Of a stretch of DNA of 39,905 nt, positions 13,755-39,905 are shown in pieces. The notes below the pieces were generated by a model. The model searched no databases. It worked only from the letters and a program-made list of their open reading frames with translations, and was not told the DNA's origin. The position numbers were made by a program, and so were the translations under genes. Within the stretch, counting starts at the first letter, position 1. The number at the start of each line of letters is the position of its first letter. Source of the DNA: a virus; the IMG/VR virus record IMGVR_UViG_3300028840_008048, positions 1 through 39,905 of that record; one strand, written 5' to 3'.

Positions 13755-15071
13755 ATGGCCAGTACATACTATGTTGATAAGGCCAGTTCAGGAGAAGCTG
13801 CCCCTTATGGTTCTTGGGCTACTGCTGCACAGGAACTTGCAACGGTATTAACGCACCATCTGGCTAATCCCGATGATGCGACTGTATGGGTAAGACGAGG
13901 AACATATACAACAGCATACGCAGGTGCCAACAACATTCCCGAGGGAAATGACCTCGAAATAAAGCCAGAATTTGAAGTAAAACCTTATCCTGTTCTACCT
14001 AGATTGGCTTTACAGAATACTGTTGTAGGCGGAGCTTTATCTACTGTAAACATTCATCACTTCGAAATCGATTCACTTGATATTGATGACCAAGCGAGTG
14101 GACAGCTAACCGTTATAGCCAATAATTTGGATATCACTACTGCAGCACAAGCATTTGGCCTAAGAATATATTGTTCTGGGGGAGGAGCAGGAGTCGATGC
14201 TGCAACTATCGATAATATCCTTGTTCGAGGTGGAATAACCAACGGGATTTACATATTTATCGAACCGTCTACATGCAGCGTTAGACGTTGTACCGTATAT
14301 GATACCACAACTGCAATTAAAGTTGAAGAAGCAGTAGGAGGATGTACCGTTAATGTTCTGAGCAACATCGTTCATACAGCCACAACGGGTATAAATTTTA
14401 CAGGACTAGCAGGTTCCACTGTCTCGGTGTCATACAACGATACTTTTACTTGCAATACAGATATAACAGGAAACATAGATACACAGACGGGAAACATAGA
14501 TGCAGACCCAAGTTTTATTAACTTAACCAGCTTCGGTATTTATGGTAATTCTCCATGTGCAGGAACAGGTGATGGCGGAGTCGACATGGGATGGGTCGAT
14601 GCCTTAGATTTACTTCCAAATGTGGTATGTACAACACCATTGCCTAACGATAAAATAGCGGGAAACATCCAGGTTTTAGCAACGGTCACAAGTTCAGCTA
14701 TAAGTTATGCGAACGGATGTCCTACACATGCACAGTGTTGTATAAACAACGGTGAATTGGTCACGATGAGTCATCAGGGAAATGGATTATTTAAAGGACA
14801 TATACGAACAGCAGGATATCCAAACGGAACAGGAACATTACACATTTATGTAGAATCAACAGGTATTGGAGGTAATACAGCTCATTCAGGTGTCTTGGTA
14901 GACCTCAGCAATGTAGACTACAGCGCAGATGCCAAAGGAGCATATATAGGTGACCACATAGGTAAAGGAACTGAAGGAATTGTATGGGTAGAAGGGGCTG
15001 AACCAAGAAAAGTCCCAAGTCCTAAAGGATACAGGCATAGAAATCTGAAATTCGGTATGAGGAGATCATAG
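13755..15071 (+). CDS. Right-handed beta-helix virion protein
   Basis: A 438-residue protein. Its N-terminus, STYYVDKASSGEAAPYGSWATA, is the usual opening of pectate-lyase-like parallel beta-helix proteins. The middle shows repeated coils (ATIDNILVRGGITNGIYI, TVYDTTTAIKVEEA, NVLSNIVHTATTGINF), closed by SPCAGTGDGGVDMGWVDA, the classic final coil. Residues of about 295-390 look like a small beta-sandwich, and the last 40 are basic. It contains no visible catalytic set, so adhesion or decoration is more likely than glycan cleavage. No Shine-Dalgarno precedes the ATG. A beta-helix protein inside the neck cluster rather than with tail fibres is unusual; it may be a collar or whisker protein. Confidence 0.8.
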   Translation: MASTYYVDKASSGEAAPYGSWATAAQELATVLTHHLANPDDATVWVRRGTYTTAYAGANNIPEGNDLEIKPEFEVKPYPVLPRLALQNTVVGGALSTVNIHHFEIDSLDIDDQASGQLTVIANNLDITTAAQAFGLRIYCSGGGAGVDAATIDNILVRGGITNGIYIFIEPSTCSVRRCTVYDTTTAIKVEEAVGGCTVNVLSNIVHTATTGINFTGLAGSTVSVSYNDTFTCNTDITGNIDTQTGNIDADPSFINLTSFGIYGNSPCAGTGDGGVDMGWVDALDLLPNVVCTTPLPNDKIAGNIQVLATVTSSAISYANGCPTHAQCCINNGELVTMSHQGNGLFKGHIRTAGYPNGTGTLHIYVESTGIGGNTAHSGVLVDLSNVDYSADAKGAYIGDHIGKGTEGIVWVEGAEPRKVPSPKGYRHRNLKFGMRRS

Positions 15072-15934
15072 TGGCAGAAATATATGGTGATGTAGTAATT
15101 GATCCGTACGAGAAATACTACCTGCGTCATGTTATAAAACGCAGTAGAACAACTCGTTATCAAACAAGCGATTCGGATCCGCCTAAGCAGACGAGTGAAT
15201 ATCCGGCTGTATCCATTCGCGGGTTTACCACACTGTGCTGGCAATCGCTAAAAATATTGAGGCCTGCATTGCGCTTCAGCCCGGCATACCCCGATTACAT
15301 CGTAAGCCAATCTGAGTCAACGGATACAATAGCATATATAGAAAGCAAGCTGGGCCGCAGCCTGACCGGATCAGAAAGACGTGCTGTAGAAGGTGGGGCT
15401 AATTACGTTACCGCCCCAAGCATTCCAGATGAAACAATTTCATGGATAGTAAAGCGGCAGGACCCGGCAAGTATGTCCGGCCAACCTTTCGGTCCCGTCA
15501 AAGAATTTAAACCGCGGTACCGGGATGTAAACGTGAATGATGTCTTTGCAGGAACAGAAAATCAGAACAGAGAAATAACAGAAAGTTATGACATCAAGGG
15601 ACAATTGATGGACAATATCATACAATTTGATATCTGGACCAAGGACCCTGGAACCGCAGAAGATCTCGTAGAATGGTTCAAAAACTTTATGGTAACATAT
15701 GAAGGAATGTTCCGGCAGCATGGAGTCAATCAAATGGGATTCTGGCGCCGGCTGCAGGATGAAGAACTGTTAAAATGGCGGAATGGATTATCCAACCGCT
15801 CAATTCAATGGTATGTACGCACAGAGGAACTGACCGTTAAATCAGAACCTCTCATTAGACAAATAAATATTAATCTGTTAAAACAAATGGAAGATTTTCG
15901 CAAACTGGAAATCGACTGGGCAAGCAATAACTAA
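15071..15934 (+). CDS. Probable tail terminator / tail completion protein
   Basis: A 287-residue protein starting with GTG at 15071 (GAGGAG just upstream; the start overlaps the previous TAG). The C-terminal half, ESYDIKGQLMDNIIQFDIWTK followed by DLVEWFKNFMVTYEGMF and a strand QWYVRTEELTVK, has the alpha/beta layout of tail terminators that cap the tube and join it to the neck. The position directly before the sheath gene supports this. The N-terminal part contains a segment around IAYIESKLGRSLTGSERRAV that I cannot place. Confidence 0.72.
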   Translation: MAEIYGDVVIDPYEKYYLRHVIKRSRTTRYQTSDSDPPKQTSEYPAVSIRGFTTLCWQSLKILRPALRFSPAYPDYIVSQSESTDTIAYIESKLGRSLTGSERRAVEGGANYVTAPSIPDETISWIVKRQDPASMSGQPFGPVKEFKPRYRDVNVNDVFAGTENQNREITESYDIKGQLMDNIIQFDIWTKDPGTAEDLVEWFKNFMVTYEGMFRQHGVNQMGFWRRLQDEELLKWRNGLSNRSIQWYVRTEELTVKSEPLIRQININLLKQMEDFRKLEIDWASNN

Positions 15935-15954
15935 TTAACGTAGGAGGAAACATA

Positions 15955-18624: not shown

Positions 18625-18633
18625 TCTAATCGG

Positions 18634-18659
18634 AAGGTGGGGCTTTCAAGCCCCACCTT
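18634..18659 (+). terminator. Perfect hairpin after the sheath gene
   Basis: A perfect 12-bp inverted repeat (18634-18645 with 18648-18659) follows the sheath stop. No T-run follows, so it may protect a 3' RNA end or be a weak or rho-assisted terminator rather than a classic intrinsic one. It lies just ahead of the ribosome binding site GGAGG of the tube gene. Confidence 0.6.
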
Positions 18660-18677
18660 ACCGTATTCGGAGGACAC

Positions 18678-18836
18678 ATGGCTGAACAAGCACAGAAACA
18701 ATTTACATTAGGAAACAATGCCTTTACCCGGACATATACTGCCCACTCGGGCTGCGATATCGTGGCGCATGCTGGGCAGTTGATTCTCGGGAATCTACAG
18801 GGTATTAGCTGGTCGGTGACCAGAGAAAAGGCAAAT
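18678..18836 (+). CDS. Tail tube-family protein, exon 1 of 4
   Basis: First 53 codons of a 221-residue tube-family protein, directly after the sheath as in most myoviruses. GGAGG lies before the ATG. Read through, the frame would stop at TAA 18843. The protein is rebuilt from exons 18678-18836, 19921-20178, 21058-21144 and 22087-22248. The joined product aligns with the intact paralogue at 22360-23472: SGCDI to SGCDI, then AGSLIFTVFDR to AGSLIFSVFDR, IPPFNITLTAGNEYGSISRLRIFGVE to IPPFDISIAFTNEYGYLSFLKIYGVE, and SIDDIINESQITFVARD to SVDDIVTENMMQFTARD. The 3' edge of this exon is uncertain: 18836 and 18843 (with exon 2 from 19928) both keep the frame and the length. Confidence 0.85.
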
Positions 18837-19920
18837 CTTGGATAAACAATCCATGAAGAAATTGTCACACAGAAATTGGAATAAATGGTCAAATAAGGAT
18901 GTTTCTTTCCTTATGAATAATTATGGAAAATTATCCCTACAGGAAATTGCAAACACCTTGCGCAAAACATATAATTCCATATCGCACAAAGCACATAAAC
19001 AACATCTTGATTCAAGGAAGCTATGGTCGGAGGATGAAAACTCAATCATAATGAGTAATTATTCTTCGAATCCTGATGTATGGTCTTTGCTTCCCGGGAG
19101 GTCAAGAACAGCTATTACGAAACAAGCAAGGAAACTTGGTGTTAAGCGAGAGTGCGGCAATTATAAAATCAATCATCGTTTCTTCGAAAAATGGACACAT
19201 GATTCAGCGTATATTATCGGCTTTATGATCGCAGATGGGTGTGTAGAACCGAAACTTAACAGAATAAGTATAGCTCTATCAACCAAAGATTACGATCATT
19301 TAAAGAAGATAAGGGATGTCATGGATTCCAGAAATCCAATATGTGTCAAAAAGATGAGGAACGAATGCGCATTATACATACATAACAGAAAAATGGTAAA
19401 TGACATCATCAATAAAGGTGTCATACCACATAAAACACATCGTACAAAACTACCTTTGATTCCTAGTGAATATATGCCTGATCTTATTCGTGGAATTTTT
19501 GACGGTGACGGATCGATATATAGACACGGCAACGAAAAACGCATTCAATTTCTCGGATCCAAACAGATGGTTGAAGACATCAAAGAGTTCTTTTGGAATA
19601 AAGGACTCGGAGGACACACTATAAGACAACATAATAAAGGATCAGATGGCTGCTGGGATCTTATATACTCTTCCAAAAATGATGTCTACAATATAATAAA
19701 CTTCATGTATTATGATGGTTGTTTATCAATGGTAAGAAAGATGGTGCCTGCCAGAGGGGCAACCCCTGGAATAATAAAATCCGCTCAAATCGGCCAAGTT
19801 AACAGTTCTACTGTTAAGGAGCCCGAGGGCAAGACGTATTTTGATACGAATAGCCTGTAGAGACTAAACGCGGATCTCCTTTTTAGGATGATGGTATAGT
19901 CCAGTTCGAAAGAATAGCCG
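18837..19920 (+). mobile_element. Group I intron 1 in the tube gene
   Basis: Self-splicing intron of about 1084 bases. The conserved P7 strands are seen as GACTA at 19862-19866 (within AGAGACTAAACG) and TAGTC at 19897-19901 (within GGTATAGTCC), the classical R and S elements. A GAAA-capped P9 hairpin follows at 19904-19915. The endonuclease ORF fills the 5' part of the intron and its 3' end runs into the catalytic core, up to the R element. Intron ends are approximate (5' edge 18837-18844, 3' edge 19920-19927), because I could not find a convincing P1 U-G pair here. It does not share the P4-P6 sequences of introns 2 and 3, so it is a separate lineage. Confidence 0.85.
18838..19860 (+). CDS. 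LAGLIDADG homing endonuclease with two Myb-like repeats
   Basis: A 340-residue intron-encoded endonuclease that would cut intronless tube alleles to spread intron 1. Two LAGLIDADG motifs are seen: YIIGFMIADGC (about residues 125-135) and LIRGIFDGDGS (about 216-226), giving a monomeric double-motif enzyme. The N-terminus carries two tryptophan-led helix-turn-helix repeats of Myb/SANT type (WSNKDVSFLMNNYGKLSLQ from about 17, WSEDENSIIMSNYSSN from about 61), an added DNA-binding module. The start could be TTG 18838 (AAAAGG upstream) or ATG 18853. The last 40 or so residues are encoded by the ribozyme core and may not matter for function. The gene is AT-rich relative to the structural genes. Confidence 0.88.
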   Translation: MDKQSMKKLSHRNWNKWSNKDVSFLMNNYGKLSLQEIANTLRKTYNSISHKAHKQHLDSRKLWSEDENSIIMSNYSSNPDVWSLLPGRSRTAITKQARKLGVKRECGNYKINHRFFEKWTHDSAYIIGFMIADGCVEPKLNRISIALSTKDYDHLKKIRDVMDSRNPICVKKMRNECALYIHNRKMVNDIINKGVIPHKTHRTKLPLIPSEYMPDLIRGIFDGDGSIYRHGNEKRIQFLGSKQMVEDIKEFFWNKGLGGHTIRQHNKGSDGCWDLIYSSKNDVYNIINFMYYDGCLSMVRKMVPARGATPGIIKSAQIGQVNSSTVKEPEGKTYFDTNSL

Positions 19921-20178
19921 ATCTTCGTAATGGGCAGTCCCAGCCCAGTGAGCTTTGCTCGCGGTAAACGCGGGCTTGCAGGCTCTCTCATTTTTACTGT
20001 TTTCGACCGGGGCGCACTTAAAGATATGATGATTTTGTCGGAATATGCCGCCAAAACATCAGACATCAGAAGCGGTGGTCGGGCGATGGTAGCTGAAAAC
20101 GAGTTTGGTCTTAAGCTGGACACCCCAAATTACTTGGATCAAATTCCGCCGTTTAACATTACGCTTACTGCTGGGAAT
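19921..20178 (+). CDS. Tail tube-family protein, exon 2 of 4
   Basis: Encodes 86 residues, from IFVMGSPSPVSF to LDQIPPFNITLTAGN. AGSLIFTVFDRGALKD is the core strand-helix shared with the paralogues at 22360 and 24890. The 3' edge is well fixed: the last six bases (20173-20178) pair with GTTCCT at 20186-20191 as intron P1, with the required U-G pair at the splice site. An ATG at 19930 in this exon is an internal methionine, not a start. Confidence 0.85.
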
Positions 20179-21057
20179 GAAATTCGTTCCTTCTGTGAGT
20201 AATCACAGTCGAACAATCGCTTTAATATGCTGGAAACCTAAGTTGTTTGCTCTTTAACAATATGGCAATCAGCAGGGAAGAGAAGAAATCTTCTCACCCT
20301 CAACGACTATCGATTTTACTATCTGGGAGGATAACATGTTGCTTCCTCAAAAAGATGACTCAATTAATATCGGTGATCTTATTGGAATGCTGCTCGGCGA
20401 TGCATCCTTAGGCAAGCCTAAAGATTGCAAAAACCCAAGAATCAATATTACACATTCAATAAGACAAAAAGACTATGCTTTATATAAAGCAGAACTTTTA
20501 AAAACAAGGTTCAAAGTACATATATGGTATGGTCGAAGATATATACCGAAAACAAAGAAATACTATGGACAAATTAGCATGATAACATCACATGACAGAC
20601 GTCTCCTCGGAATATGGAAAAGATTTTATAACTCAGGTTCCAAAAGAGTTCCGAAGATAATAAGTGCGATAACACCACGTGGACTTGCCTTATGGTATTT
20701 CGATGATGGCTCTCTAATAACTCATACAAGAGTCAGGAAAGGAAAAAGGATATATGATGGCTGGAATTGTACATTTGCCACGGATTCTTTTCCGCTTGAA
20801 GATCAAACATCCCTTGTGGAGATGTTAAAAACCAATTTTGATATCAGAGCCAGAGTTATTGGGAAAAGAAAAAGATATTACTTATATATCAATAACACTG
20901 AATCAAAAAAGATGCTTGAAATAATAAGACCTTTTGCAACAAAGGATATGATATATAAGGTAAATTATCAAAGTAGAATTGAGAAAACCAAGCGACTCCT
21001 TCAAAAGAAGGATGATGAGATAGTCTGACACTTCAAGAAATTGGAGAATACAGAGTG
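20179..21057 (+). mobile_element. Group I intron 2 in the tube gene
   Basis: An 879-base intron. P1 is GGGAAT (20173-20178) with GTTCCT (20186-20191). P10 is ATTC (20182-20185) with GAAT at the start of exon 3 (21058-21061). Core P4-P6 strands are ATATGCTGGAAAC at 20225-20237 and CAATCAGCAGGGAAGAG at 20266-20282. P7 is GACTAT (20305-20310) with ATAGTC (21020-21025). The last intron base is G. The endonuclease ORF sits in the P8 loop between the two P7 strands and ends in the second. The evidence for both splice sites is direct base pairing. Confidence 0.92.
20336..21028 (+). CDS. LAGLIDADG homing endonuclease (LAGLIDADG_2 type)
   Basis: A 230-residue endonuclease in the P8 loop of intron 2, with GGGAGG at 20325-20330 before its ATG. 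Motifs: LIGMLLGDAS (about residues 15-24) and LALWYFDDGSL (about 117-127), with FATDSFPLEDQTSLVEML after the second, the arrangement of the compact LAGLIDADG_2 family related to I-DmoI-like and organellar enzymes. It differs clearly from the endonucleases of introns 1 and 3. Its last codons overlap the 3' strand of P7. A separate ribosome binding site suggests translation from unspliced or excised RNA. Confidence 0.9.
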   Translation: MLLPQKDDSINIGDLIGMLLGDASLGKPKDCKNPRINITHSIRQKDYALYKAELLKTRFKVHIWYGRRYIPKTKKYYGQISMITSHDRRLLGIWKRFYNSGSKRVPKIISAITPRGLALWYFDDGSLITHTRVRKGKRIYDGWNCTFATDSFPLEDQTSLVEMLKTNFDIRARVIGKRKRYYLYINNTESKKMLEIIRPFATKDMIYKVNYQSRIEKTKRLLQKKDDEIV

Positions 21058-21144
21058 GAATACGGCAGTATTTCCAGACTCAGAATATTTGGGGTGGAAC
21101 TCTTAAACCAGGGAAGTGGTTTGAGCATTGATGATATAATCAAT
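21058..21144 (+). CDS. Tail tube-family protein, exon 3 of 4
   Basis: A short 29-codon exon (EYGSISRLRIFGVELLNQ ... SIDDIIN). It matches EYGYLSFLKIYGVEIVDEG and SVDDIV in the intact paralogue. Its 3' end is fixed by P1 pairing of TCAAT (21140-21144) with GTTGA (21153-21157), U-G at the splice site. Translation past 21144 would read intron core until TAA 21247. Confidence 0.85.
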
Positions 21145-22086
21145 TGGCAACAGTTGACTCATATGGCAACATATGATAAAAACAAATCTTACTATATGCT
21201 GGAAACTCCTTCTAAAGGACAATCAGCAGGGAAGAGCATCCTGGGTTAACCAGGGGTTACACTCCCCTCAGAGACTACATGTAGGAAATCCGCATGAGAA
21301 CAGGAAGACCAGGGAAGAAAATGAACGAGACATATTTCCAGACATGGAACGAGGATATGGCATATATCCTCGGATTCATCGTCGCTGATGGATGTGTTGT
21401 ATGCAAAAATGGTTTGTATCAATGCATCATTGTCTCGAAAGATGTCGATGTTCTTGAATTCATCAAGGGTCAGGTTGAATATCCACATCCAATTGCCAAG
21501 CAAAAGGATGGAACAAGCAGATTAAGCTTGACCAGAAAGCAAATCGTTATGGATTTAATGGCACTAGGAATACTACCAAGAAAAACGTGGAATCTTTTGA
21601 TGCCTAAAATTCCTGATGGTCTATTTCGTTCATTCGCTTTAGGTTACTTTGATGGCGATGGGTCTGTGTACACAACACGTCAACCCAGAGGCCGTCGTAA
21701 CATCAAACTTATGACCGAATTCATATGTTCTTCTAAAGAATTCCTCCAAGTGTTTGGAAACAAGCTTAAAGAGGAAACGGGATATATACCCAAAATATAT
21801 TCAGATAATAGGTCTGATAACAGATTCAGAATGATGTCTGCAACGCACGAATCATTACTACTATATCATTATTTTTATGATGATTCCAGTTCATTTTACC
21901 TCACTAGAAAACGAGCAAGGTTCGAGGAATGGTTGGGACATCAGGGCAACCCAAGATGGGGAATGATAAAGTGCGAATTATGCGGAACTGATTTTGTTAG
22001 AACTCATGACAAAAGCAAAAGATGCTGGTCATGCAGACGCGGATTAAGATATAGTCCATCTCTTATGGTAACATAAGATATATGAG
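21145..22086 (+). mobile_element. Group I intron 3 in the tube gene
   Basis: A 942-base intron. P1 is 21140-21144 with 21153-21157. ATATGCTGGAAAC (21194-21206) and CAATCAGCAGGGAAGAG (21220-21236) are identical to core segments of intron 2. P7 is GACTA (21273-21277) with TAGTC (22052-22056). P9 is the hairpin TCTTAT/ATAAGA just after it. The last base is G. The endonuclease ORF begins in the P8 loop and ends beyond the 3' P7 strand, so coding and ribozyme sequences overlap. Confidence 0.92.
21294..22076 (+). CDS. LAGLIDADG homing endonuclease with C-terminal zinc knuckle
   Basis: A 260-residue double-motif endonuclease encoded in intron 3. Motifs: AYILGFIVADGC (about residues 23-34) and ALGYFDGDGSV (about 115-125). 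The C-terminus adds a CxxC ... CxxC pair (CELCG at about 227, CWSC at about 244) that should bind one zinc ion. It resembles the intron 1 enzyme in motif type but lacks Myb-like repeats. AGGAAA about eight bases before the ATG is a modest ribosome binding site. Its last dozen codons are the ribozyme P7/P9 sequence. Confidence 0.9.
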   Translation: MRTGRPGKKMNETYFQTWNEDMAYILGFIVADGCVVCKNGLYQCIIVSKDVDVLEFIKGQVEYPHPIAKQKDGTSRLSLTRKQIVMDLMALGILPRKTWNLLMPKIPDGLFRSFALGYFDGDGSVYTTRQPRGRRNIKLMTEFICSSKEFLQVFGNKLKEETGYIPKIYSDNRSDNRFRMMSATHESLLLYHYFYDDSSSFYLTRKRARFEEWLGHQGNPRWGMIKCELCGTDFVRTHDKSKRCWSCRRGLRYSPSLMVT

Positions 22087-22267: not shown

Positions 22268-22303
22268 TGGGGTGCTAACCAAGGTTGGCACCCCATTTTT
22301 TTT
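22268..22303 (+). terminator. Rho-independent terminator after the tube gene
   Basis: A 13-bp stem (22268-22280 with 22283-22295, one G-T wobble, tight AA loop) is followed by eight T. It closes the sheath/tube transcript. Confidence 0.93.
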
Positions 22304-22359
22304 ATTATAAAAGTGCAAGTATAACATACCAATGTGCGTATACTTTTAATGGAGACAAT

Positions 22360-23472
22360 ATGGCAGACATTCTTACCGGCATAACGGACTTCGCGAAAGG
22401 CACCTTCAGTAAAATCTCAGAAGGGGTTGTAAATGCTCCTGCAGCTATTAAAAAGGCTGCTGACGAAGCATTGTGGCCTCATGATTGGACTGACTGGTCT
22501 AAACCTTTTGCACCGCGCCACTCGAAGTTTGGAGAGAGCAATACAGCCTATTCCGGCTGCGATATCACTCCAACTATATTCACTGGCCGGACTCTTATGG
22601 TGCTTGGTAATATCCACACATTGTCCTACTCAATACACAGGGAAAAAGGCTTTGTTCGGACGCTTACCAGGATGTATCCTAAAGGTGTGGTCCGTGGGCC
22701 GGCTACCATAGCTGGCTCGCTCATTTTCAGTGTATTCGACAGGCATGTGCTATATGATCTGCTGAGCGAGTATGAATATGAGCCTTCTGTTGACCAGAAT
22801 CCTGAGACCGACGGGTCAAATATGCGGAGTCCACTGTCAGTACAGATACCTCCTTTTGACATAAGTATAGCATTTACAAATGAATACGGCTACCTTTCTT
22901 TCCTCAAAATATATGGAGTAGAGATAGTCGACGAAGGTCAGACCATGAGTGTAGACGATATTGTAACAGAAAATATGATGCAATTTACTGCCCGGGATAT
23001 AGACCCTATGATGCCATATGAGTCAGGTGAGCGATCAGGCCGGTCAATTATGTTTAATAAAGCTACCTTTACAGAACGAACTCCGCTTATCAGATATAAC
23101 CATGAACTATACAGGCAAGTTGGTGCATACCAAAATGCTATCAGATATGTCCAGAATCTCATTAATGAAAATCATAATATGTGGATATATTATGAAGGTG
23201 AAACAATGGGACAAGATTACAAAACAAATCGTGATACATTAAAAACGGACTTGTTAAAGCTTCAGAATGGGGGAAATATTTCTTCATATACAAAGCAAAA
23301 ACTGGTTGAAAAAGGGTACTGGAATGGACTTAAAAAACAGGATGGAAAACCCGATGCCGTTATTGGTCTAACCAGTGCAGAAGAATCCTACAATAACGGA
23401 ATTGAAAGCGATGTGTCCGATATGTATCAACGAAACGGAACTGTTGAAACCAATAAACCAATGGTGCTATAA
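22360..23472 (+). CDS. Tail tube-family paralogue with C-terminal extension
   Basis: A 370-residue protein. I chose ATG 22360, which has GGAGA upstream; the in-frame start at 22285 lies in the terminator. Residues 67-225 match the intron-split tube protein along its whole length (SGCDI, AGSLIFSVFDR, IPPFDISI, GVEIVDEG, SVDDIV), so the two arose by duplication. The N-terminal 66 residues add a DFAKGTFSKISEGVV-like amphipathic section and a WPHDWTDWSKPF turn. The C-terminal 140 residues are polar, Asn/Lys/Tyr-rich and more AT-rich. It may be a tube initiator, distal tube or baseplate-hub-adjacent protein. It ends in a TAATG overlap with the next gene. Confidence 0.8.
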   Translation: MADILTGITDFAKGTFSKISEGVVNAPAAIKKAADEALWPHDWTDWSKPFAPRHSKFGESNTAYSGCDITPTIFTGRTLMVLGNIHTLSYSIHREKGFVRTLTRMYPKGVVRGPATIAGSLIFSVFDRHVLYDLLSEYEYEPSVDQNPETDGSNMRSPLSVQIPPFDISIAFTNEYGYLSFLKIYGVEIVDEGQTMSVDDIVTENMMQFTARDIDPMMPYESGERSGRSIMFNKATFTERTPLIRYNHELYRQVGAYQNAIRYVQNLINENHNMWIYYEGETMGQDYKTNRDTLKTDLLKLQNGGNISSYTKQKLVEKGYWNGLKKQDGKPDAVIGLTSAEESYNNGIESDVSDMYQRNGTVETNKPMVL

Positions 23473-29600: not shown

Positions 29601-32600
29601 ATCTTACAGGATCTTAAGAAATTCTTACCCACCCGCCACGGTGGAAAACTCCGGTTGCCCATTAAAGACATCATCAAAGAGCGCCATGCTCAGACTCCAA
29701 GTGAAACTGTCATGGACTCTATTATGGACGAAGTGACTTTATTCAATCCCGTCAGCGGAAAGAGCGTCGCTGCCGGATATATGATGGGCAGGTTGTTTGA
29801 TGTGCTCGAACAGATGCCTGTTGTTGGACCTGCTCTTGCATTTAATAAGACAAGATATAATACTCCTGGCAAGATGCTGTGGGGAGGCATAGGGAAACGG
29901 GTTCTCCAGGCAGGCGCTGCAGTCGCAGGATGGCAGGCGCTTGATACTGCTATAGATGAAAATCCTCTATTTTCTGGCACTATGCTTGACGAGGGTCTTA
30001 ATGTTGCTATTGCAGAGCAAGCTGCTAAGGTGCGTCTTGCGGGCGCACGGCTTGCTGATATAACAGGTGTTACCAAAGGCATGAAATATATTGAAGGTCT
30101 TATGCCCGGGTCATCTACATTCATTCCAGGTGCGTTTGCAGGAGCTCTACTCACGCGTAACCGCGGTGTCGGCAGTATGTTAATGGGAGGACTCGCAGGC
30201 GGATTTGGAAACAGATTCGTTAGTGCAATGGTGCCTTATCCGGACTTTACCAAGAGTTATAAAGAATTACGGGAAGAATATTCAGGACGCAGACGAGTAC
30301 CAATTGGTCAGGGTGCTTATATGTTCGGGCGTGATCCCATGATAGGTGGTAATGTAGACCGCTATGGTGCAAACTGGTTCCACAGAATTAAGTCGCAATA
30401 CCAATATACTCCGGATGCTTTCGGGTCCAAGTGGGAAGCACTTGCCTACAAACCATTCCCTATTGTTGATGTTAATCCATTTGCTTTCCTGCTCGGCGAT
30501 CCATACCATTATGAGAAATGTGTAGAAGAAAATACTCTTATTAAGACGGCTATCCATGGCTTGAAAAAGGTCAAAGATATTAAGAAAGGCGATATCATAC
30601 GGACCCACGACAATAAATGTAAACAGGTGGAGGAGAAATGGACATCAGCGTCTGACCAGATGGTTTCGATACAATCTTCACTTAGTCATATAGATAGTTT
30701 AACAACATCAGAACACAAATACCTTGTATATCAATCTGTGTCATGTTCCAAAAGAAAGAACAGGATATCATATTGTTTTCCAAAAACATGGAATAGGTGT
30801 AAAACATGCAAAGATAAACAACCTGTCGAATTAAAATGGATTAGAGCAGATGAAATAAAACTTGGAGATTTTTTAGCATACCCCATTCCTAATTTTATAA
30901 ACTGGGATGGAGATAGATTCTTATCATTCAAAGACGAGAAAACATCCTCTAGATTAGATGCCGCCGAACTTATACCCACAAGAGTATATAAAGACGATGG
31001 TCTCATCGACCTATTTAGATTATTTGGATATTATTGTGCAGAAGGACATATACAAAGAGGTTGTGTTTGCTTTTCGTTTGCTTACAAAGAAAGAAACACT
31101 TGGTCAAAAGATGTCAAAAACATAGTAAATAACATATTCCCTAATGTAAATATTACTATCAAAAATGAGAAAGAAAAAGGAACATCCAAAGTTTACATAT
31201 CAAACTCCGTCTTATGGAGAGCATTTAGAAAGTTTGGGAAGAAGGAACATAAACATATGCTCTATATAGACATGAGAAGAGATGAGGCGGTTGAATTTAT
31301 AAGAGGTGTTTTCAGAGGAGACGGTTCTTTTACCAAAGGAAGAAACCAACTCAATATAGCAAATACCAGCTTGGAGCTAATTCAACAATGCAGAGATATT
31401 CTTCTTGGTCTTAACATCTTCAGTTCGATATACAAAAGAGAAGGAAAAACACGGTATCACAAAACATTCAAAAAGAATATAACAGAAAAAGATTCGTATT
31501 TGCTTAACGTTGCAGGAAAAGATTGCATTTTATTTAAAAAACTTATAGACACTAACGGTGAAGCATTTAAAGAAAATCCATCTCGGTCTCATTTCTTCCA
31601 GAACGGTTATGTTTTTTCGAAAGTAACTAAGATAGAGTCTCTGACAGGAGAATACAATATAGTTGACTTAAAAGTAAAGGATTCACACAGCTTCTGTGGA
31701 GTCGGCGCTGTTTATCATAACACCCATTATCAGACGAGGCCATACGCGCTCAGTTCCAGACCATTCGACGAAGTGCCTCTGCTTGGTCCTTTCATTGCAA
31801 ATACAGTAGGACGACTTATAAAACCAACCCGCAGAATGCATTCTGAAGAGTTGGAGAATATGATAAATGAAGATACTCAATTTGTTAATCCCATGGCCGG
31901 TGCTAATCCTGCGCGCGGCGGATCCGGTGCATCGGGATCGGGCATACGAACTCCTTCGCTCTACAGATCCCCTATATCGCCTTACAGCCGTCAGCAGGTG
32001 CTTAGTGAAATGATGTACCGTGGGTTTATGGAACCAACCGGTCTGCCGGGTTTCTTAACCGAGACTGCGCTTGGTGGAGTACCCTTTGCAGGTGAAGATG
32101 TCCTTGCCGAAGCATCACCGCTAACCAGCGCAAATAGAACATATTGGAATCTGCAGTTAGGTGACTTTCCTATGGGAATGGGCGAGGCAATGCGGCGGGT
32201 CGCTCCCAAAGAGCGACTTGCCAAAAGTTATAACCCGCTTAAGAACAGGATAGCTCACTGGCTACGTATGGAAGAAGATGATACTTACCCAAATTTCAGC
32301 CTCGGTGATCCCTATACCGCTGTAGTAGCGGGTGAAGAGAGATTACCTGGATCGATGTATGAAAGTTTGTGGAACGTACGGCATTCATTCCCAGGTAGTG
32401 CATCTATGCTTGGTAAGTCCCTCCACGAACAGATAGAACATTTCATGGGTGTAGCAGATAGAGCTACACTTGCTGAAGAAGATATAATGGAAGAAGGTAC
32501 CGCCATCCACCAATCTGTCCAGAACATGCTTGTTAACGCAAATATGGCTGATAAAATCGAAGCGCATGTTTATGATCCGCGGGCAGATATAGGTGGTTAT

Positions 32601-34334
32601 GTTGATGCTATTTTACGAGGCGGTGTGGTCGGCTCGGGTAAAAGTGCTCTGGAAATCAAAAGCGTGTCTGCCGATTCAATGTCACGGCTGACCAAACCTC
32701 GATTTACCCACAGGTCTCAGCTGAATAACTATCTGAAACAGCTTGGCATGTGGCAAGGGGGCATTCTCTATGTTGCGCGGGAAGACCCGCGCATGACCAA
32801 GTACTTTCCCGTCAAATACTCTGAAGAACTGGAAGAATTCAACATGCAGCGGCTGCACCAGGCCCGCGAGATCGCAGGAACACTATTCTCACAAGGCCTC
32901 GGCTACCACGGTGGAGAAAGCTACTCTCGATTGGATAGACTGCGGATTCTGAGTGACGTAGCTCCTAGTTCAAAGTCATATAAAACTGAGCTGGCAAATG
33001 TCCGTGCGCAAATACGTGCAGGCATGATAAACGAAGCAGGTCTCGAAGAATTCAAGAATATCCAGAAGAATAGAAACGTGAGCATGCAACAGGTCCAAAT
33101 GTATCCACATCGCTTTCTCAATGGTGGGATAACACATCCTGATCCCAGATATCAATTGCTGTCCCAGAACGAGAATATTAAAGCTGCTGCCGAATACAAT
33201 ATATTTGAGAGAACAGTCGGCGCAGGCTGGGAGAAATTTCTGTCCTTAAATAGTCCTCTCCACACAAAATTGTTACAATACAGAACGCCAATCCAGCAAT
33301 ATCAGAAGAGGGTGCTTGAGATGCAGGACTTCACCAGGTGGAAAAACCCTGTGCAGAACTTCTTGGGTCCATACGCATACGGATTACGTGGCGCAACTGA
33401 TCCTATCCAAGGAGGACTATCAGGTGCAGTGGGTGGATTCCTGCTTGGTGGTCCTTTTGGTGCTGCTGTCGGTGGACTAGGTATGGCTGCCTATGGAGGG
33501 CTTCATGGAATCTATAGAGGTGTTACCGGAACACAATACATCCCAAAGAGGGTCCAGGAACACAGAGAGCAGATGGAATATTGGGATAAAATGAAGTATA
33601 TCAAAGCCCATCGGTTATATGAGCAGACAGGCGAGCGGGAATATGATCAGGAAATGAGCGAGACTATGATTGGTATAGATCCTTTTGCGTCCGGCAGAGA
33701 TGTCTTTTCCAATATGTATCGCGCTACTCCTACTGACGAGCGACCTTATCTCTTTGCATTCATGGGTGAAACAGATTCCGGCAACCGTGAAGCTATTTCA
33801 AAAATGGTATCTCCGGGCGTGCGGAGGGTGCTTGAATCACGGTGGGGAACCAGCGATGCCAAGGCCCGCCAGAACCAGCGGGACTACGAGAAGTCGGCTG
33901 AACTGGCTAACTTCTTTGGAGACCATTATCTCCCTCCACCCGAGTGGGTCGGATGGGGAAGCGAAGTTGATCTGGCTGATGTGCAGTTAAAGACAATGCG
34001 CCGGGAGGGGCTGGATGCTCACCGGGCCGGATTGGGCTATAGAGACCAGGAGCGAAAGGTAAGAATGTCGCCTTACATCCCGGGTCCCATTGATATCCGG
34101 GAAAGCAACGACGAAACCCCTGATTTCTCGCGGATGAACAGATCCAGCGTGCAGTCGGCTATACGGAATCTTATTCGGCAGTCAGGGCTGTCCGGCGGAG
34201 TTAATGTGTCTGTCATCCAAGGAGCACCTGAGGATATTGTGGTTAATCTGAACGTTTCGCGTAACCCGCGCGAGAACATGGAATCGTTTATGAATGCATC
34301 TTATGGTATGATGAAGGTAATGAGGGCACTGTAA
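26607..34334 (+). CDS. Giant tape-measure-position protein with RecB-like nuclease domain and intein
   Basis: 2575 codons, starting at TTG 26607 (GAGGA upstream); 2174 residues after loss of the intein at residues 1305-1705. It occupies the tape measure position. Seen: a hydrophobic N-terminal segment (FKTLAAGMLLFAVGSMM, about 20-37), basic helical regions, and two glycine-zipper-like hydrophobic stretches (about 1174-1211 and 2268-2305) like those of ejected, membrane-inserting phage proteins. Residues of about 1945-2070 carry a PD-(D/E)XK nuclease signature of RecB/Cas4 type: GTAIH (His1968), GYVDAIL (Asp2000), LEIKS (Glu2016, Lys2018), then QLNNYLKQLG matching the QxxxY motif. A nuclease inside a tape-measure-like protein is unusual. 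The enzyme activity is predicted from motifs only. The next gene overlaps by one base. Confidence 0.85.
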   Translation: MNQNPVPPEEEQEQTAGGMFKTLAAGMLLFAVGSMMQGGIRKALGKGVTRMLPKKWAARATNYAREAGRISAKGAVQTRFMDAVITSHPLAETVTRGWGKFIQPFRGALGDIRRGLKSQGLKIEQTAHGPMANLKAMSNPARWKYIHQMAATPKGWKAGVGVMEEWARRYIGMSMTFYGVDRLTRGHLTKDPSDNYNPPPIWNVPALAADYAKFTVKWMPQDLLFSGATRLVSGGFLPALVGKGVGKVLEPHAASINRSIAALKKFRMPKGAVSDLMQEVRGIGRGVAAVGSYVNSGKMAPVAHKVVRSGDKFTYRPTSAAERTRAVKNNWFVMKSLFRTAFHNKKSAQSLASQSPAADVFRQINTLVNQAGDLSAARDMPFSTASVTQPIEALIRQAQVKPKGSLIAEALRWKHARIGKKNAEKFMLEAFGSQNLERLGSKQWREHLAAYMKGTKDMIKGDDPVFEMVSRAMNKVYLGGGIYRSAGRGAATMNLGRMKPLALAKTAVKFGLHIPGANKLTFGGLLKLDNLLNRKSKQFANYMLRQGEVTYAPNPISKKYMALTSNPSTMDTTQMKMAGFINGEAVFFRDGQWNVISGKGQHGWERWKGGNGIEMSLIPEQPGGDLHYHIDLISGRLEKNIEDLRDRGVVGKNPSKLKKFFMNQEIGYHGNERHPSFLKIMMDKLRMHTGRNLGGNPEIPFLSPKGNVFEKELYDEHIKKNLLGKDFRLKTRSAMGFLSHLYERTSSEAYISIFRNLDKLANASNTLIRGREFGGKKYADMLRMMTNEDSLIKYAEDYLSVNQIAVKPWYSEVRNVLADVHLNRKTALTKTYGKASTNLTGADQLRKMYLMDMLSGIDKAGTGAIESSFKQVTDDILKTGIIGADEEVFLKSMDLWSQIVGFRGASAKSERSIGQWLMKGTNVADDSPEAVTELIRFLGFEKRKDLGMLAEAMNIKGRGHFSSYRNYTHKGAEAIANVPFVVTSKDIPLLATEGESLTILQDLKKFLPTRHGGKLRLPIKDIIKERHAQTPSETVMDSIMDEVTLFNPVSGKSVAAGYMMGRLFDVLEQMPVVGPALAFNKTRYNTPGKMLWGGIGKRVLQAGAAVAGWQALDTAIDENPLFSGTMLDEGLNVAIAEQAAKVRLAGARLADITGVTKGMKYIEGLMPGSSTFIPGAFAGALLTRNRGVGSMLMGGLAGGFGNRFVSAMVPYPDFTKSYKELREEYSGRRRVPIGQGAYMFGRDPMIGGNVDRYGANWFHRIKSQYQYTPDAFGSKWEALAYKPFPIVDVNPFAFLLGDPYHYEKCVEENTLIKTAIHGLKKVKDIKKGDIIRTHDNKCKQVEEKWTSASDQMVSIQSSLSHIDSLTTSEHKYLVYQSVSCSKRKNRISYCFPKTWNRCKTCKDKQPVELKWIRADEIKLGDFLAYPIPNFINWDGDRFLSFKDEKTSSRLDAAELIPTRVYKDDGLIDLFRLFGYYCAEGHIQRGCVCFSFAYKERNTWSKDVKNIVNNIFPNVNITIKNEKEKGTSKVYISNSVLWRAFRKFGKKEHKHMLYIDMRRDEAVEFIRGVFRGDGSFTKGRNQLNIANTSLELIQQCRDILLGLNIFSSIYKREGKTRYHKTFKKNITEKDSYLLNVAGKDCILFKKLIDTNGEAFKENPSRSHFFQNGYVFSKVTKIESLTGEYNIVDLKVKDSHSFCGVGAVYHNTHYQTRPYALSSRPFDEVPLLGPFIANTVGRLIKPTRRMHSEELENMINEDTQFVNPMAGANPARGGSGASGSGIRTPSLYRSPISPYSRQQVLSEMMYRGFMEPTGLPGFLTETALGGVPFAGEDVLAEASPLTSANRTYWNLQLGDFPMGMGEAMRRVAPKERLAKSYNPLKNRIAHWLRMEEDDTYPNFSLGDPYTAVVAGEERLPGSMYESLWNVRHSFPGSASMLGKSLHEQIEHFMGVADRATLAEEDIMEEGTAIHQSVQNMLVNANMADKIEAHVYDPRADIGGYVDAILRGGVVGSGKSALEIKSVSADSMSRLTKPRFTHRSQLNNYLKQLGMWQGGILYVAREDPRMTKYFPVKYSEELEEFNMQRLHQAREIAGTLFSQGLGYHGGESYSRLDRLRILSDVAPSSKSYKTELANVRAQIRAGMINEAGLEEFKNIQKNRNVSMQQVQMYPHRFLNGGITHPDPRYQLLSQNENIKAAAEYNIFERTVGAGWEKFLSLNSPLHTKLLQYRTPIQQYQKRVLEMQDFTRWKNPVQNFLGPYAYGLRGATDPIQGGLSGAVGGFLLGGPFGAAVGGLGMAAYGGLHGIYRGVTGTQYIPKRVQEHREQMEYWDKMKYIKAHRLYEQTGEREYDQEMSETMIGIDPFASGRDVFSNMYRATPTDERPYLFAFMGETDSGNREAISKMVSPGVRRVLESRWGTSDAKARQNQRDYEKSAELANFFGDHYLPPPEWVGWGSEVDLADVQLKTMRREGLDAHRAGLGYRDQERKVRMSPYIPGPIDIRESNDETPDFSRMNRSSVQSAIRNLIRQSGLSGGVNVSVIQGAPEDIVVNLNVSRNPRENMESFMNASYGMMKVMRAL
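30519..31721 (+). mobile_element. Intein with LAGLIDADG endonuclease in the giant protein
   Basis: A 401-residue in-frame intein, residues 1305-1705 of the ORF. It begins with Cys (CVEENTLIKT, block A), has TTSEHKYL (block B, about residue 1366), LAGLIDADG motifs LFGYYCAEG (about 1470) and IRGVFRGDGSF (about 1565), then YNIVDLKVKDSHSF (block F) and ends VYHN before Thr (block G). Splicing would join HYEK to THYQTRP. All catalytic positions for self-splicing (Cys1, TxxH, terminal His-Asn, Thr+1) are present. The coding is AT-rich relative to the flanks, which fits a mobile origin. Confidence 0.95.
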
Positions 34335-37300
34335 TGGAATTCAAAAAACAATATGAAGACGACGAAACCAAACGAGCTATTATAGCCGCTGCATCCCTCG
34401 TTGGTTCTCTTTCCATCGGTGCAGTCGTTACCCATAAACTGGTGTCGCGCAGCCTTAATCCTGTCCACTCAAGCTTGTTCGAATCCAACACATTCCGAAT
34501 GCTGTCCAAGGTATTCGGGCTGAACACCTCCGAGGCATATAAGGCTTATGAAAAAGCCCTTTCCGGATCGGCATCCAAAGTATATTCTAACTCCTTCAGA
34601 AACTCATTTATAATTCATCCAGATGCAAGTGTAATAGAACAAAGCGAGCGTGCTGCAGCAGAGCGGAAGATCCAGGATCTGAAGCGACTTGAAACGAGAA
34701 TCAGAAAGATGGAAGGCACACTATCAGAAGATATGATAGATTCCAGCCGGATAAGTGTGCTGACAAATATGCGCAACACTCCTGAGGGCGCCAGCGAACC
34801 TTTCTTTACGCGGAATATAAACAGGGCCATTAAAGGACTTGACGACGATACATTTGAATCCATTTTACGCAGACATCCCGCTGCGCTGGACAATTATATG
34901 AAGGTCCTTCGGCGCAGGGAGGTCAGAAGCAGAGATATGTATAATGCTGTGAAAAGCAGCAGAAAAGTCTCTATGGGCGAAGCCGGTGCAGTTGTGCTTG
35001 ACATGGGAAGAGACCCCCGCATTACCAAACCGGAAGGTGCTTTCTCAGATGAAATGTATAGACGGCTGAAACCGAAGCCCGGCGAGTCACCGGAGCCTCT
35101 TTCATTTGAACAGCTTTATCCCACCGCCAATGAAGTGTTTCAGGAGGCACACAAGCGGCCGACTGATTATAACAAAGTGGTGCGAATGGTGTCGACTGAA
35201 GTGGGAAGCTACGAGGCATTCCTTTATTCCCGGGATATCAAGAAGCTGATCGACGAAGCCAATATGCAGATGGCTGAATACAAGGGGTTGGATGCAGACA
35301 TCAAATTCCATGTGCGGACGGACAACAAGGGACATAAGATACTTGATGTCAATGTACATACCCAACGAATAGACCTAAATGGGAGGCTGATTAAAGGATC
35401 CCACGCCTCCCACAATATTCCTATTCCTCTCCAGACCGGGCCGGAATACTGGACAGGAACCCAGCTCAAGGTAGGATACTTCTACGAACCAGAGGGTGGA
35501 AAGAGACTTAACGTCACTCAGCAGGCATTCGGAGCAACCCGCAAAGCTCTTCCCAAAGTCATCCGGGATCTTGCAGGACGAGGCGATACGTCTGCTACAA
35601 AACCGGTAAGCAATATATTCAAGGTAGGTGGAGCTGCTACCGGAACCATCATAGACTACTTCGATAGTAGTGCCTTTACCAAAGAAATATTCCAGAGAGT
35701 CCAGAGTCCCAAGCTGTCCGACCAGACCAATGCTTTCAAGGGCTGGACGAGCCTGGTTAATATGTCTGACATACGCGCTGGTAAAACAGAGACCGTTCAC
35801 ATAGATATAGAAACATCCACTCCAGGGTTACTGGGACGGACAGGTGTCCAGCCGCGGGTCAACGATCCTACCCGCTCCAAGATATACCAGATAAGTGCGG
35901 TCGCTCGGAACCGCGATGGGTCAATTAAAGAAGTCTTCAACGAATTCATCGGTATAAGTGATAAGGACTTAAATAAAGCCCAGCTTTCTGAAATGCTACG
36001 CGGTGATCAGGAAGCCATGAACCAAGTCATCAAAAATGTTGAGCATGCCAGAAGAACAGGGAATACTCATATCACTGTCAAGAAAAAATTTGTTGACTTC
36101 ATGAAAAGGAACAAAGGTCACCTTGTTGCCAAACAAGCTGAATTTGAAAAGACATTCCTAAATCACTTTGCACCTGAGCTGAATCTTCTCCATCGCCCAT
36201 GGGAAGACCCGCAGGAGATGTACCGGATTGCAACAGGTTCTGTACTTGCAGATAGACTTGAGCTGAGAGATATCGCTAAGAGAATTTATGCCAAAGAAGT
36301 AGGCAGCGGTAATATAGATACATTTATTCGTAATAAGATACTACGTGAACCCAAGATGGCCTCCCACTACGGCGGATTCCATAGCTCTGCTACAGATGCT
36401 TTTATATACTGGGATGTCATGAACTGGTCCTATGACCAGGCCGTCAGCCGGCTTAAGCTGACTGACAAGGAAATGATGTCCCGGCTGACCCGTGCTCAAC
36501 GTGAAGTCGGAATGAAGGTAATTCCTTTCGATTACCAGGTAGAGCTCTTTAACGAGATGATGATGAAGCAGGGTGCGCGGACAGGCATAGACGAAGAATA
36601 TCTTCCGCTCTATCTGCATACTGTCTCTTCCAACATGGCGAATAAAGGCTTTACCAGCCTGGTAGATGTCATGAAATACTCTCCGTTCGGCTTTCTCATG
36701 AACGCAGCCAGGCCACTTAGACAGTTCTGGGCATCCGGCAATTTATACTGGAAGCGAAGCCGCCAGGAGCACGCCGCCCAGATAAAACAAGGGTCATATC
36801 ATACCAGGACAGTACCTTTTATTACAACACCCCAGTGGGAACGAATGTTCCAAGCTCATCCTCAAAAGACACTTCATGCTCATCCGCTGATGAACGTTGC
36901 TTTCTCAACACATCCAATGTTCTCGGATGAATCCGGTTACATTGAAAGGAAAATGGCGGATAAGTTGGGATGGAATGTCAAGAAAAACGAATCATTCGAG
37001 TTTACACTCGCAAATGGAAACCCACGGCTGCACAACTCAATTCGAAACTTCCAGAGCAGAGTTAAGGAAAAGATGCTTGGTCTGATGAAAACAGGCAAAT
37101 GGAGCCACGGCGAAGCTCCTCCTCGACACGTCATTGACGAATTCATGGATAATCCTTTCATGAATAACGCTTTTAAGAGCGAGGATGGAGGCAGTCTTGG
37201 AAAGCTGATTGATCTGCGACACGCTGCTATCCAGCGTGTGCTGGAAGAAGAGTCGCGCTACCCCAGCAAACCCGGAAAAGGAATACGAGTTGGACACGGG

Positions 37301-39905
37301 TCTGTCCTCTTTCACCAAGGAGACCAGAACATCGCATGGAAAGGATTCGGAGGATATATCACCAATTTTGAAGCCCGTCATCTCGGTGAGCAAACCAAGT
37401 TCATTGTAGAAATAGCTCAGGATCCAGGATTCGTTCCAAACGTGCGGGCGATAACACCGTGGAGCAAAGCCACTCTCTCTCCTTTGCCGAGCAAGGTAAC
37501 AAATGGAATAAGGAAAATAGTTGCCGGTTCGCCTCATATCAATGCATACTTCCCACTCAAGATAACTGCCGGTCCCGGTGCGATGTTCGAAGGCGCCCTT
37601 ACAAATGCAATTGCTCCTGTTGTAAGAGATGCCATTCAGAAGGGCTCCCCGGAGTCCATGAGACGACTGGACAGCCTTGCTTCGCTTATTCACGAGAGAC
37701 TTGGCTGGAAGATGGAAGAGATGTCTAAAACCCAGCAAGCTATCTACGGCGTAGAAAACAAATACCGGCTTGTCATGAACGAAATGGTGGATGCAGATAC
37801 ACTTATAACATCCCTCGGCAAAAAAGGATCTATAGATGTTATTCAGGAAGCTAATAAAATAGCAGGCAATCTGTGGTCAAAGGATGAGGCGTCCGCTTTC
37901 TATGATTGGCTGAAATTAAAGAAAAACGTTGCTTTCGAAGAAAGAAGGCAAACCGCCATTAAACTTTACAAGCAAAATCTGCGGATGGAAAAATGGTCCA
38001 GCGAATCCATCAAAACACTTGATTGGATGATAGAGACATTCATGCCTGCCCCTGGAAAAGCGCGTCTAGGTGTTATGGAGATGTGGGGTGATAAGCACAT
38101 GTTCTTTCCTTTTGCTGCACGGGGAGTACCAGTCGGATTCACTCACGATGACCTAGATAATCTGAAGATGAAAGCAAAGTCCCTTAAGGCTCATGCTATC
38201 AAAGACAGGGGTGTTGCTTTCCGCGCAGAAGATTACTATCTGCTTGAAGGAGACCCGCTGTGGTCTGAAGATATGAAGCGCTATATCCGAGAGCGCTTCG
38301 GAATGACGGTCCATGCCAACAAAAAAGAACTTCGTAAGTTCTTTGATATAATAGGACTTACACGAGGTGCTGAAGGAGATTTGCGTAGACGTAAAGATGT
38401 TATGATATGGGGCAAGGACAGGCTGCTTAATGAACTGGATATGCTTGGTGAGGAAAACAGAAAGTGGACCAATCCTGAGGCAACTACCCGCGGATTCATG
38501 TCGCGCGAGAACGCAAGATACTATTCCAAGAACATTATGCTTGAGCTGCCAGAAGCTCTCAGAAACAGCAAATACGCCAGCCTGCTGCAGTTCGGCGCAG
38601 AAGACCTGTTCCCGGGAATGAAGCACTTGCCGTCCGAACAAAAAGCTGTGCTTATGGGAATGCTGGGTGAGCCTTTCAAAGGCGGGAAGAAGCTTGACTT
38701 TGCCAAGGCAGGATACATGCCTATGCTCGCTCCGGGTGCTTTTTACGAAGCTATGGAGATCGCAGGCAAAGGCGGTGTAACCAATGACATAGGACTATCT
38801 GTTAAAAACTACATGGACAAGGTACGAGCGGCATACAATGCCGGCCAGGATGACATGTACGATGCTGTCCTTGGTGTCCGCGAGACCTATTTGAACATGT
38901 ACTGGAATGCTTTTAAAGCAGTCTCCGGTAAAGGCGGGTTGCTTGAAGAAACGATGACCGCTCGGTGGCCGGGATTCAGCGCACGGCTTGGTTCGATCGA
39001 TGCACTGATGGCATTCGACAAACATCCCATTCATAGCCTCATCAAGGATATATCCGAAGCCGGCCTTGCTCACCCGCGGATGGGAATTATATCTGCAAGC
39101 GCAGCTGACCAAGTAGGGCTAAAAAGTTTGCTTGGAGAAGCAATCGGTGCTCACTTCAGCGCGAATAAAGGTCAGAGTGCGCTTCTTGACCTGATAAATA
39201 AACACGGCAGCTTCAAAAAAGCTCTTAAAAAAGAAGGAAAAAGCTATCTTACTCTCCATGGAATGGTAAAGGCCGCTCCTCTTGCTGAGGCAGGCATAGG
39301 GTCATTTGTCCCGATTACTCTGCACATTGGGCAAGATAAATACATTCATAGCGGCCGCAAGAAAGATCCTGTTGGAATCTTGTATCTTACCCAAATGGGC
39401 ATGGATGCTATGAAAGCAGATGTTGATGGCGATAAGGATAACTTTGCTATCATAGGAGATAGGGTAACTGCCAACAATGTGTTAAGAGGATACTTCAATG
39501 AAATAGGGGATATGAATACAGCCACCGGCCGAGCACATAAAGAAATGGTTGCCCAATGGCATAATGAATCCCTTGAAGACGCGGTTACCAAAGGAGCAAC
39601 CGGCTTCAAATGGTGGACATATGATGAGAAAACAGGGTGGAGAATGGAATGGGTGGCTGTAGAAAAAAGACAGCAAGCCCTTAAATATGCCGCTGAAGAA
39701 ATGCGAAGACGCGGTGAGCCGGCTATGAGCAGCATTCAGGAAATCAAAACCCGGGGTGCGTTCGGCAAAATGCACGAGTTATTTGACCCTGATAAGGGAT
39801 CTTATGCGCTGCAGGAGTGGATACAGGGCGGCAATCCAACCAAAATGCACCTGACCAAGAGCCTTGTGCCGCTTGCCGGTAAAAAAACACTTGGTATATT
39901 CTACA
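34334..39905 (+). CDS. Giant virion-region protein: DnaQ-like exonuclease and possible RNA polymerase barrel (3' end outside window)
   Basis: Open for 1857 codons from ATG 34334 (one-base overlap with the previous stop) to the window end, with no stop. Hydrophobic stretch at about 15-33. Residues of about 485-700 carry a DEDDh exonuclease pattern: HIDIET (Asp491, Glu493), then KIYQISAVARNRDGS, GHLVAKQAEFEKTFL (motif II with Glu605 in place of the usual Asp), and HSSATDAF (His683, Asp688, motif III). Near the end, MKADVDGDKDNFAII (Asp1696, Asp1698, Asp1700) closely resembles the NADFDGD metal loop of RNA polymerase beta' and the DxDGD loop of YonO/QDE-1/crAss-like single-chain polymerases. An EF-hand-like calcium site is the main alternative. 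No T7-type polymerase motif was noticed. Gene position suggests a virion-carried, perhaps ejected, protein. Confidence 0.8.
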   Translation, partial: MEFKKQYEDDETKRAIIAAASLVGSLSIGAVVTHKLVSRSLNPVHSSLFESNTFRMLSKVFGLNTSEAYKAYEKALSGSASKVYSNSFRNSFIIHPDASVIEQSERAAAERKIQDLKRLETRIRKMEGTLSEDMIDSSRISVLTNMRNTPEGASEPFFTRNINRAIKGLDDDTFESILRRHPAALDNYMKVLRRREVRSRDMYNAVKSSRKVSMGEAGAVVLDMGRDPRITKPEGAFSDEMYRRLKPKPGESPEPLSFEQLYPTANEVFQEAHKRPTDYNKVVRMVSTEVGSYEAFLYSRDIKKLIDEANMQMAEYKGLDADIKFHVRTDNKGHKILDVNVHTQRIDLNGRLIKGSHASHNIPIPLQTGPEYWTGTQLKVGYFYEPEGGKRLNVTQQAFGATRKALPKVIRDLAGRGDTSATKPVSNIFKVGGAATGTIIDYFDSSAFTKEIFQRVQSPKLSDQTNAFKGWTSLVNMSDIRAGKTETVHIDIETSTPGLLGRTGVQPRVNDPTRSKIYQISAVARNRDGSIKEVFNEFIGISDKDLNKAQLSEMLRGDQEAMNQVIKNVEHARRTGNTHITVKKKFVDFMKRNKGHLVAKQAEFEKTFLNHFAPELNLLHRPWEDPQEMYRIATGSVLADRLELRDIAKRIYAKEVGSGNIDTFIRNKILREPKMASHYGGFHSSATDAFIYWDVMNWSYDQAVSRLKLTDKEMMSRLTRAQREVGMKVIPFDYQVELFNEMMMKQGARTGIDEEYLPLYLHTVSSNMANKGFTSLVDVMKYSPFGFLMNAARPLRQFWASGNLYWKRSRQEHAAQIKQGSYHTRTVPFITTPQWERMFQAHPQKTLHAHPLMNVAFSTHPMFSDESGYIERKMADKLGWNVKKNESFEFTLANGNPRLHNSIRNFQSRVKEKMLGLMKTGKWSHGEAPPRHVIDEFMDNPFMNNAFKSEDGGSLGKLIDLRHAAIQRVLEEESRYPSKPGKGIRVGHGSVLFHQGDQNIAWKGFGGYITNFEARHLGEQTKFIVEIAQDPGFVPNVRAITPWSKATLSPLPSKVTNGIRKIVAGSPHINAYFPLKITAGPGAMFEGALTNAIAPVVRDAIQKGSPESMRRLDSLASLIHERLGWKMEEMSKTQQAIYGVENKYRLVMNEMVDADTLITSLGKKGSIDVIQEANKIAGNLWSKDEASAFYDWLKLKKNVAFEERRQTAIKLYKQNLRMEKWSSESIKTLDWMIETFMPAPGKARLGVMEMWGDKHMFFPFAARGVPVGFTHDDLDNLKMKAKSLKAHAIKDRGVAFRAEDYYLLEGDPLWSEDMKRYIRERFGMTVHANKKELRKFFDIIGLTRGAEGDLRRRKDVMIWGKDRLLNELDMLGEENRKWTNPEATTRGFMSRENARYYSKNIMLELPEALRNSKYASLLQFGAEDLFPGMKHLPSEQKAVLMGMLGEPFKGGKKLDFAKAGYMPMLAPGAFYEAMEIAGKGGVTNDIGLSVKNYMDKVRAAYNAGQDDMYDAVLGVRETYLNMYWNAFKAVSGKGGLLEETMTARWPGFSARLGSIDALMAFDKHPIHSLIKDISEAGLAHPRMGIISASAADQVGLKSLLGEAIGAHFSANKGQSALLDLINKHGSFKKALKKEGKSYLTLHGMVKAAPLAEAGIGSFVPITLHIGQDKYIHSGRKKDPVGILYLTQMGMDAMKADVDGDKDNFAIIGDRVTANNVLRGYFNEIGDMNTATGRAHKEMVAQWHNESLEDAVTKGATGFKWWTYDEKTGWRMEWVAVEKRQQALKYAAEEMRRRGEPAMSSIQEIKTRGAFGKMHELFDPDKGSYALQEWIQGGNPTKMHLTKSLVPLAGKKTLGIFY

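Follow-up and report, generated by a model that had tools for sequence, protein, structure and literature searches.

The giant gene P0001 at the 3' end of the window (the whole 39,905-base virus record that was analysed) is likely to encode a single-chain two-barrel RNA polymerase within a giant tail protein, which would be assembled into the tail, ejected with or ahead of the DNA and used to transcribe the first phage genes. By gene order and homology to annotated phages, the window is the structural operon of a contractile-tail phage, with a terminase-like gene at its start and with portal, capsid, sheath, tube and chaperone genes that were named by synteny with the phages MTATph1, KLEB27-3 and ME3. 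P0001 (34334..39904, + strand, 1857 aa) starts with an ATG at 34334 and continues as a single forward frame with no stop up to the contig end, leaving the 3' end of the gene open; its reading frame, a profile match and fold comparisons led to its annotation as a putative fusion of a virion RNA polymerase with a tail protein. The gene is preceded by sheath, tube and chaperone-like genes and then by the 2575-aa giant gene P0002 (26607..34334, + strand), confirming an earlier sequence-only reading that had noticed a giant gene in the tail operon. The KADVDGD motif pointed out in that reading was likewise found in the giant frame cut by the contig end, at residues 1694-1700; its aspartates, D1696-V-D1698-G-D1700 (39419..39433, + strand), are the predicted catalytic triad of the second double-psi barrel according to the alignment and the window model.

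Searches with P0001 itself gave no useful match by tblastn in phages, by an exact-peptide IMG/VR scan, by phmmer against the PDB or in Pfam and PHROGs. Additionally, an exact-peptide scan of IMG/VR with the window terminase gave nothing useful for P0001, and tblastn searches with KLEB27-3 gp034 and with ME3_36 each retrieved only the query. The family was discovered through homologue searches with the conserved neighbour P0002, which has relatives in Moorella phage MTATph1, Bacillus phage KLEB27-3 and Acinetobacter phage ME3, and whose conserved C-terminal part (A1, A4) retrieved relatives in dozens of IMG/VR contigs and in genome contigs, including Paenibacillus, Oceanobacillus and Alicyclobacillus records. 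In almost all of the relatives with enough sequence, the gene that follows encodes another giant protein, 1.5-3 kilo-residues long in many cases and often carrying R[YF]P...DxD[GA]D. A single family, main2, comprises 23 non-redundant members. Most of these have DEDD exonuclease motifs towards the N-terminus; further along, the family has a K-x6-K/R-x-T block, an invariant RYP/RFP, the DxD[GA]D triad, a second block of the form Q-x2-I-[SD]-x-K and a segment at the C-terminus. Remote groups of nine and four members align to main2 near the second barrel, each with 97% probability in profile comparison (E 6e-12 and 9e-12, respectively). Record L037, a further candidate member, was removed, giving no match to the profile built without it.

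P0002 itself contains an intein with a LAGLIDADG domain (residues 1305-1702; 30519..31712, + strand), across which the homologues are continuous (1304/1703), and an inserted Cas4/RecB-like PD-(D/E)XK nuclease domain (residues 1935-2088; 32409..32870, + strand; phrog_1706, E 3e-14) that the three other proteins in alignment A1 lack. Elsewhere in the window, three LAGLIDADG endonuclease genes (starts 18838, 20336 and 21294) were seen among short ORFs in the region 18838-22076, and these short ORFs resemble pieces of a tube-protein gene similar to the one at 22285-23472. Mobile introns may have interrupted a tube gene here; an Rfam search found no group I intron or other Rfam match.

The proposal of a double-psi barrel polymerase, originally made from the motif, is supported by same-position homologues with RYP...DxDGD, by profile matches in the PDB and by the model of a relative and, weakly, that of the window protein, in which a beta-like part precedes a beta'-like part. 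A profile of the polymerase region of the relatives (alignment A6, 19 sequences, never including L037) was compared with 177,635 PDB sequences; its five matches were all RNA polymerase beta'-type chains aligned at R-x-P...ADxDGD, the best being the phiKZ non-virion polymerase (E 0.0017). When the family profile was compared with that of the QDE-1-like polymerases encoded by the phages themselves, a weak match appeared in the right place (E 0.006). For residues 1040-2095 of the relative L054, AlphaFold2 returned a confident model (pLDDT 83, pTM 0.81) with a predicted beta/Rpb2-like first half and a predicted beta'-like second half, and model residues 12-515 superposed on Rpb2 with Z 16.5 and rmsd 3.6 over 347 (VIA-align). 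Foldseek against the PDB produced 472 matches to this model at E<=0.001, and the 50 listed of these 472 were all polymerase beta'-type chains, whereas among predicted viral structures the best named match was a 'minor tail protein' (E 4e-20), followed by two uncharacterised ME3 proteins.

Within this family, P0001 was recognized by the A6 profile at 18.5 bits (E 1.8e-5 for 798 sequences), with reversed members scoring at most 6.2 bits and unrelated ORFs and shuffles about 4 bits or less as controls. Two stretches collinear with the profile account for this score, residues 741-842 and 1685-1720; its significance comes from the first, and the DVDGD stretch on its own is not significant (E 0.49). 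The main-family profile built without L037 scored P0001 at 15.1 bits, and a six-frame profile search of the window returned P0001 only (36551-36865, E 7.1e-6). Both hmmsearch and the six-frame search point to a conserved family block in the beta-like half, at residues 740-845 (VDVMKYSPFGFLMNAAR; 36551..36868, + strand). The DxDGD motif by itself is not beyond chance, being present in 401 of 20,000 residue shuffles of P0001 (2%), whereas the wider profile match is. That frequency would suit a DxDGD that arose by chance in some unrelated tail protein, perhaps in a calcium-binding loop; this reading is nevertheless highly improbable in view of a collinear profile match far above the controls, gene-for-gene synteny with clear polymerases and model matches to beta and beta' in the right order. 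An EF-hand for DVDGD was rejected on its residues, as DVDGDKDNFAII has no Gly at position 6 and no acidic residue at position 12.

The window model, which covers P0001 residues 700-1857, is of low confidence (pLDDT 46, pTM 0.43), and nearly all of its Foldseek matches are polymerases, none reaching E 0.001. A fragment comprising model residues 48-527 matches beta (AR9, Z 10.4), another comprising residues 781-1035 matches beta' (Z about 7.8, rmsd 3.0-4.3 for trimmed rows), and QDE-1 aligns to the model across the beta- and beta'-like parts (Z 7.5). The beta and beta' matches come in order along the chain; the two barrels are confident in L054 and tentative in the window model. Because the family alignment guided the window model, it is supporting rather than independent evidence.

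The first barrel, which the sequence-only reading could not place, is now aligned at about residues 1030-1090, where the predicted basic pair R1038-x6-K1045-x-T1047 (37445..37474, + strand) lines up, in alignment A7 only, with the K-x6-K-x-T of the relatives; the first basic residue is Arg, not Lys. D1696, D1698 and D1700 line up with the family DxDxD triad, and their KADxDGDxDN surroundings are well kept. The conserved Q-x2-I-[SD]-x-K segment comes after the triad in the relatives, beyond the cut in P0001, which ends with the contig before the bridge helix/trigger loop region.

Between the two barrel motifs, the RxP loop position corresponds in alignment A7 to A1647-A1648-P1649 (39272..39280, + strand), with P1649 on the RxP Pro and Ala1647 in place of an Arg that is invariant in the main family. 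The earlier suggestion that DPVGIL (residues 1678-1683) represents the R/P loop was not upheld; the stretch falls within or next to an insertion missing from most relatives, about 30 residues past the actual site of the loop. The Arg of RxP is common, not universal, in two-barrel polymerases. In bacterial polymerases it contacts the ribose of the incoming nucleotide, and substrate choice or activity may therefore differ in the Arg-less P0001. The remote nine-member group (L030, L038, L040, L041, L044, L045, L049, L050 and L056) is Arg-less like P0001, with A-Y-P, A-D-P or V-D-P in place of R-Y-P, and keeps DxDxD; a change of substrate choice is possible there. An Ala in place of the RxP Arg, an Arg as the first basic residue and the complete absence of the catalytic domain from some relatives would all suit a polymerase-derived but inactive tail protein, in which the barrels are kept as structure and catalysis has been lost in the window branch. 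Such a loss is unlikely, with the Asp triad intact in a well-kept neighbourhood and with DxDxD still present in the nine Arg-less relatives, as expected under selection for metal binding.

Ahead of the predicted barrels, a probable DEDD 3'-5' exonuclease-like domain was placed at residues of about 485-720 (35786..36493, + strand) from weak blastp matches and motif positions, in agreement with the relatives, where the polymerase region usually lies behind a DEDD exonuclease. The motifs in P0001 are D491/E493 and H683/D688, with the exoII Asp replaced by Glu in AEFEK. The region matches MTATph1 CDS0027 weakly in blastp (E 0.02-0.09); the domain of CDS0027 itself passes the Pfam RNase_T cut-off, and no Pfam match was obtained for the domain of P0001.

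In its tail locus, P0001 occupies the gene position of 0305phi8-36 orf146, which was assigned as the tape measure mainly from tail length, lies one gene away from two chaperone genes and has a relative in BtI1 with an alignment limited to the last 60 residues (PMC2147016). KLEB27-3 gp034 is annotated as 'structural protein'. Additionally, a separate QDE-1-like polymerase of 1134-1467 aa is encoded in 13 of the 24 relatives (PF05183 in 11, and two more with A8), and an arrangement of a virion plus a non-virion enzyme is known from P23-45 and phiKZ (PMC10770324, PMC7824862). An active polymerase that is made late, works in the cell and is merely encoded beside the tail genes is quite improbable against this background: the polymerase is part of the same polypeptide as conserved segments of the tail locus, the equivalent proteins carry the tape measure and structural assignments given above, and the phages with a QDE-1-like enzyme already have a separate polymerase.

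The polymerase comes and goes in this tail gene, because MTATph1 lacks the polymerase part and L037 lacks the triad. The MTATph1 gene has the exonuclease and C-terminal parts with the polymerase part missing, and an IS21-like transposase/ATPase pair was observed in the gap (L002:34538-36780). L037, the probable 0305phi8-36 record, encodes a positional homologue without DxDxD at 13600-21273; this protein has a weak match near the conserved block (residues 1194-1304, profile probability 61%), which may be a polymerase remnant. No recognisable catalytic domain was found in MTATph1, L005 or the probable 0305phi8-36 record, and the polymerase is therefore not essential to the tail protein.

Combined, these results favour a virion polymerase, and P0001 probably travels in the particle and enters the bacterium along with the DNA; we infer packaging, entry and activity from the gene position and the analogy with P23-45 gp96. 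The protein would consist, in order, of an N-terminal region, the exonuclease-like domain, a beta-like half with the basic pair and a beta'-like half with the DVDGD metal site, and past the cut, as in the relatives, a trigger-loop-like region and then the conserved C-terminal segment would follow. Once assembled into the tail, the protein would enter the cell together with the DNA or before it and would transcribe the first phage genes independently of the host polymerase. A possible role for the exonuclease is the processing of nucleic acid as entry proceeds, and in many relatives the separately encoded QDE-1-like polymerase would take over afterwards.

The literature search, made in the main texts of open papers, returned no polymerase in this gene or lineage, and an unnamed listing in the supplement of PMC10770324, a survey of viral polymerases, is possible; the family is apparently an undescribed, widespread branch of tail-fused two-barrel polymerases. 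The results suggest that many members of the 0305phi8-36 lineage encode a two-barrel polymerase joined to an exonuclease in a tail gene whose annotation has been tape measure, structural or hypothetical. The question of which gene determines tail length there is also raised anew, and the start of transcription in a very large phage during DNA entry becomes testable. A broader interpretation, speculative and rather doubtful, is that an ancient contractile-tailed lineage has a virion polymerase and exonuclease at its supposed tape measure, with a branch, the window included, that works without the ribose-sensing Arg and maybe has an altered substrate choice.

Polymerases fused to ejected proteins are reportedly known from crAss-like phages. 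Fusion to an ejected or tail protein is also already known from Thermus phage P23-45, where the virion RNA polymerase and the tape measure protein are fused in gp96 (PMC10770324). Taken with these systems, the present family suggests that polymerases have repeatedly become fused to tail proteins that are ejected. Like P0001, gp96 is a single-chain two-barrel polymerase in a giant tail protein, and P23-45, like many relatives here, has a second, non-virion polymerase in its genome; both show almost no sequence similarity beyond DxDGD. In gp96 the polymerase is N-terminal in a 5,002-residue protein, with a clamp-less fold, in a phage with a long non-contractile tail, whereas the phages here have contractile tails, the polymerase lies nearer the C-terminus, usually behind a DEDD exonuclease, and the window protein has no RxP Arg. 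The virion polymerase gp66 of crAss-like phage phi14:2 is likewise described as a giant, presumably ejected protein with two fused barrels, but belongs to a different phage group, and no sequence match to it was found. The QDE-1/YonO-like polymerases (PF05183, including 0305phi8-36 gp99) share the single chain with two barrels, in agreement with the alignment of QDE-1 to the window model; P0001 has no PF05183 match at E<=1, and the PF05183 enzyme of the relatives is a separate gene. Overall, the best profile and fold matches are to the multisubunit polymerases of phiKZ and AR9, which are split into several subunits, whereas the polymerase here is one chain.
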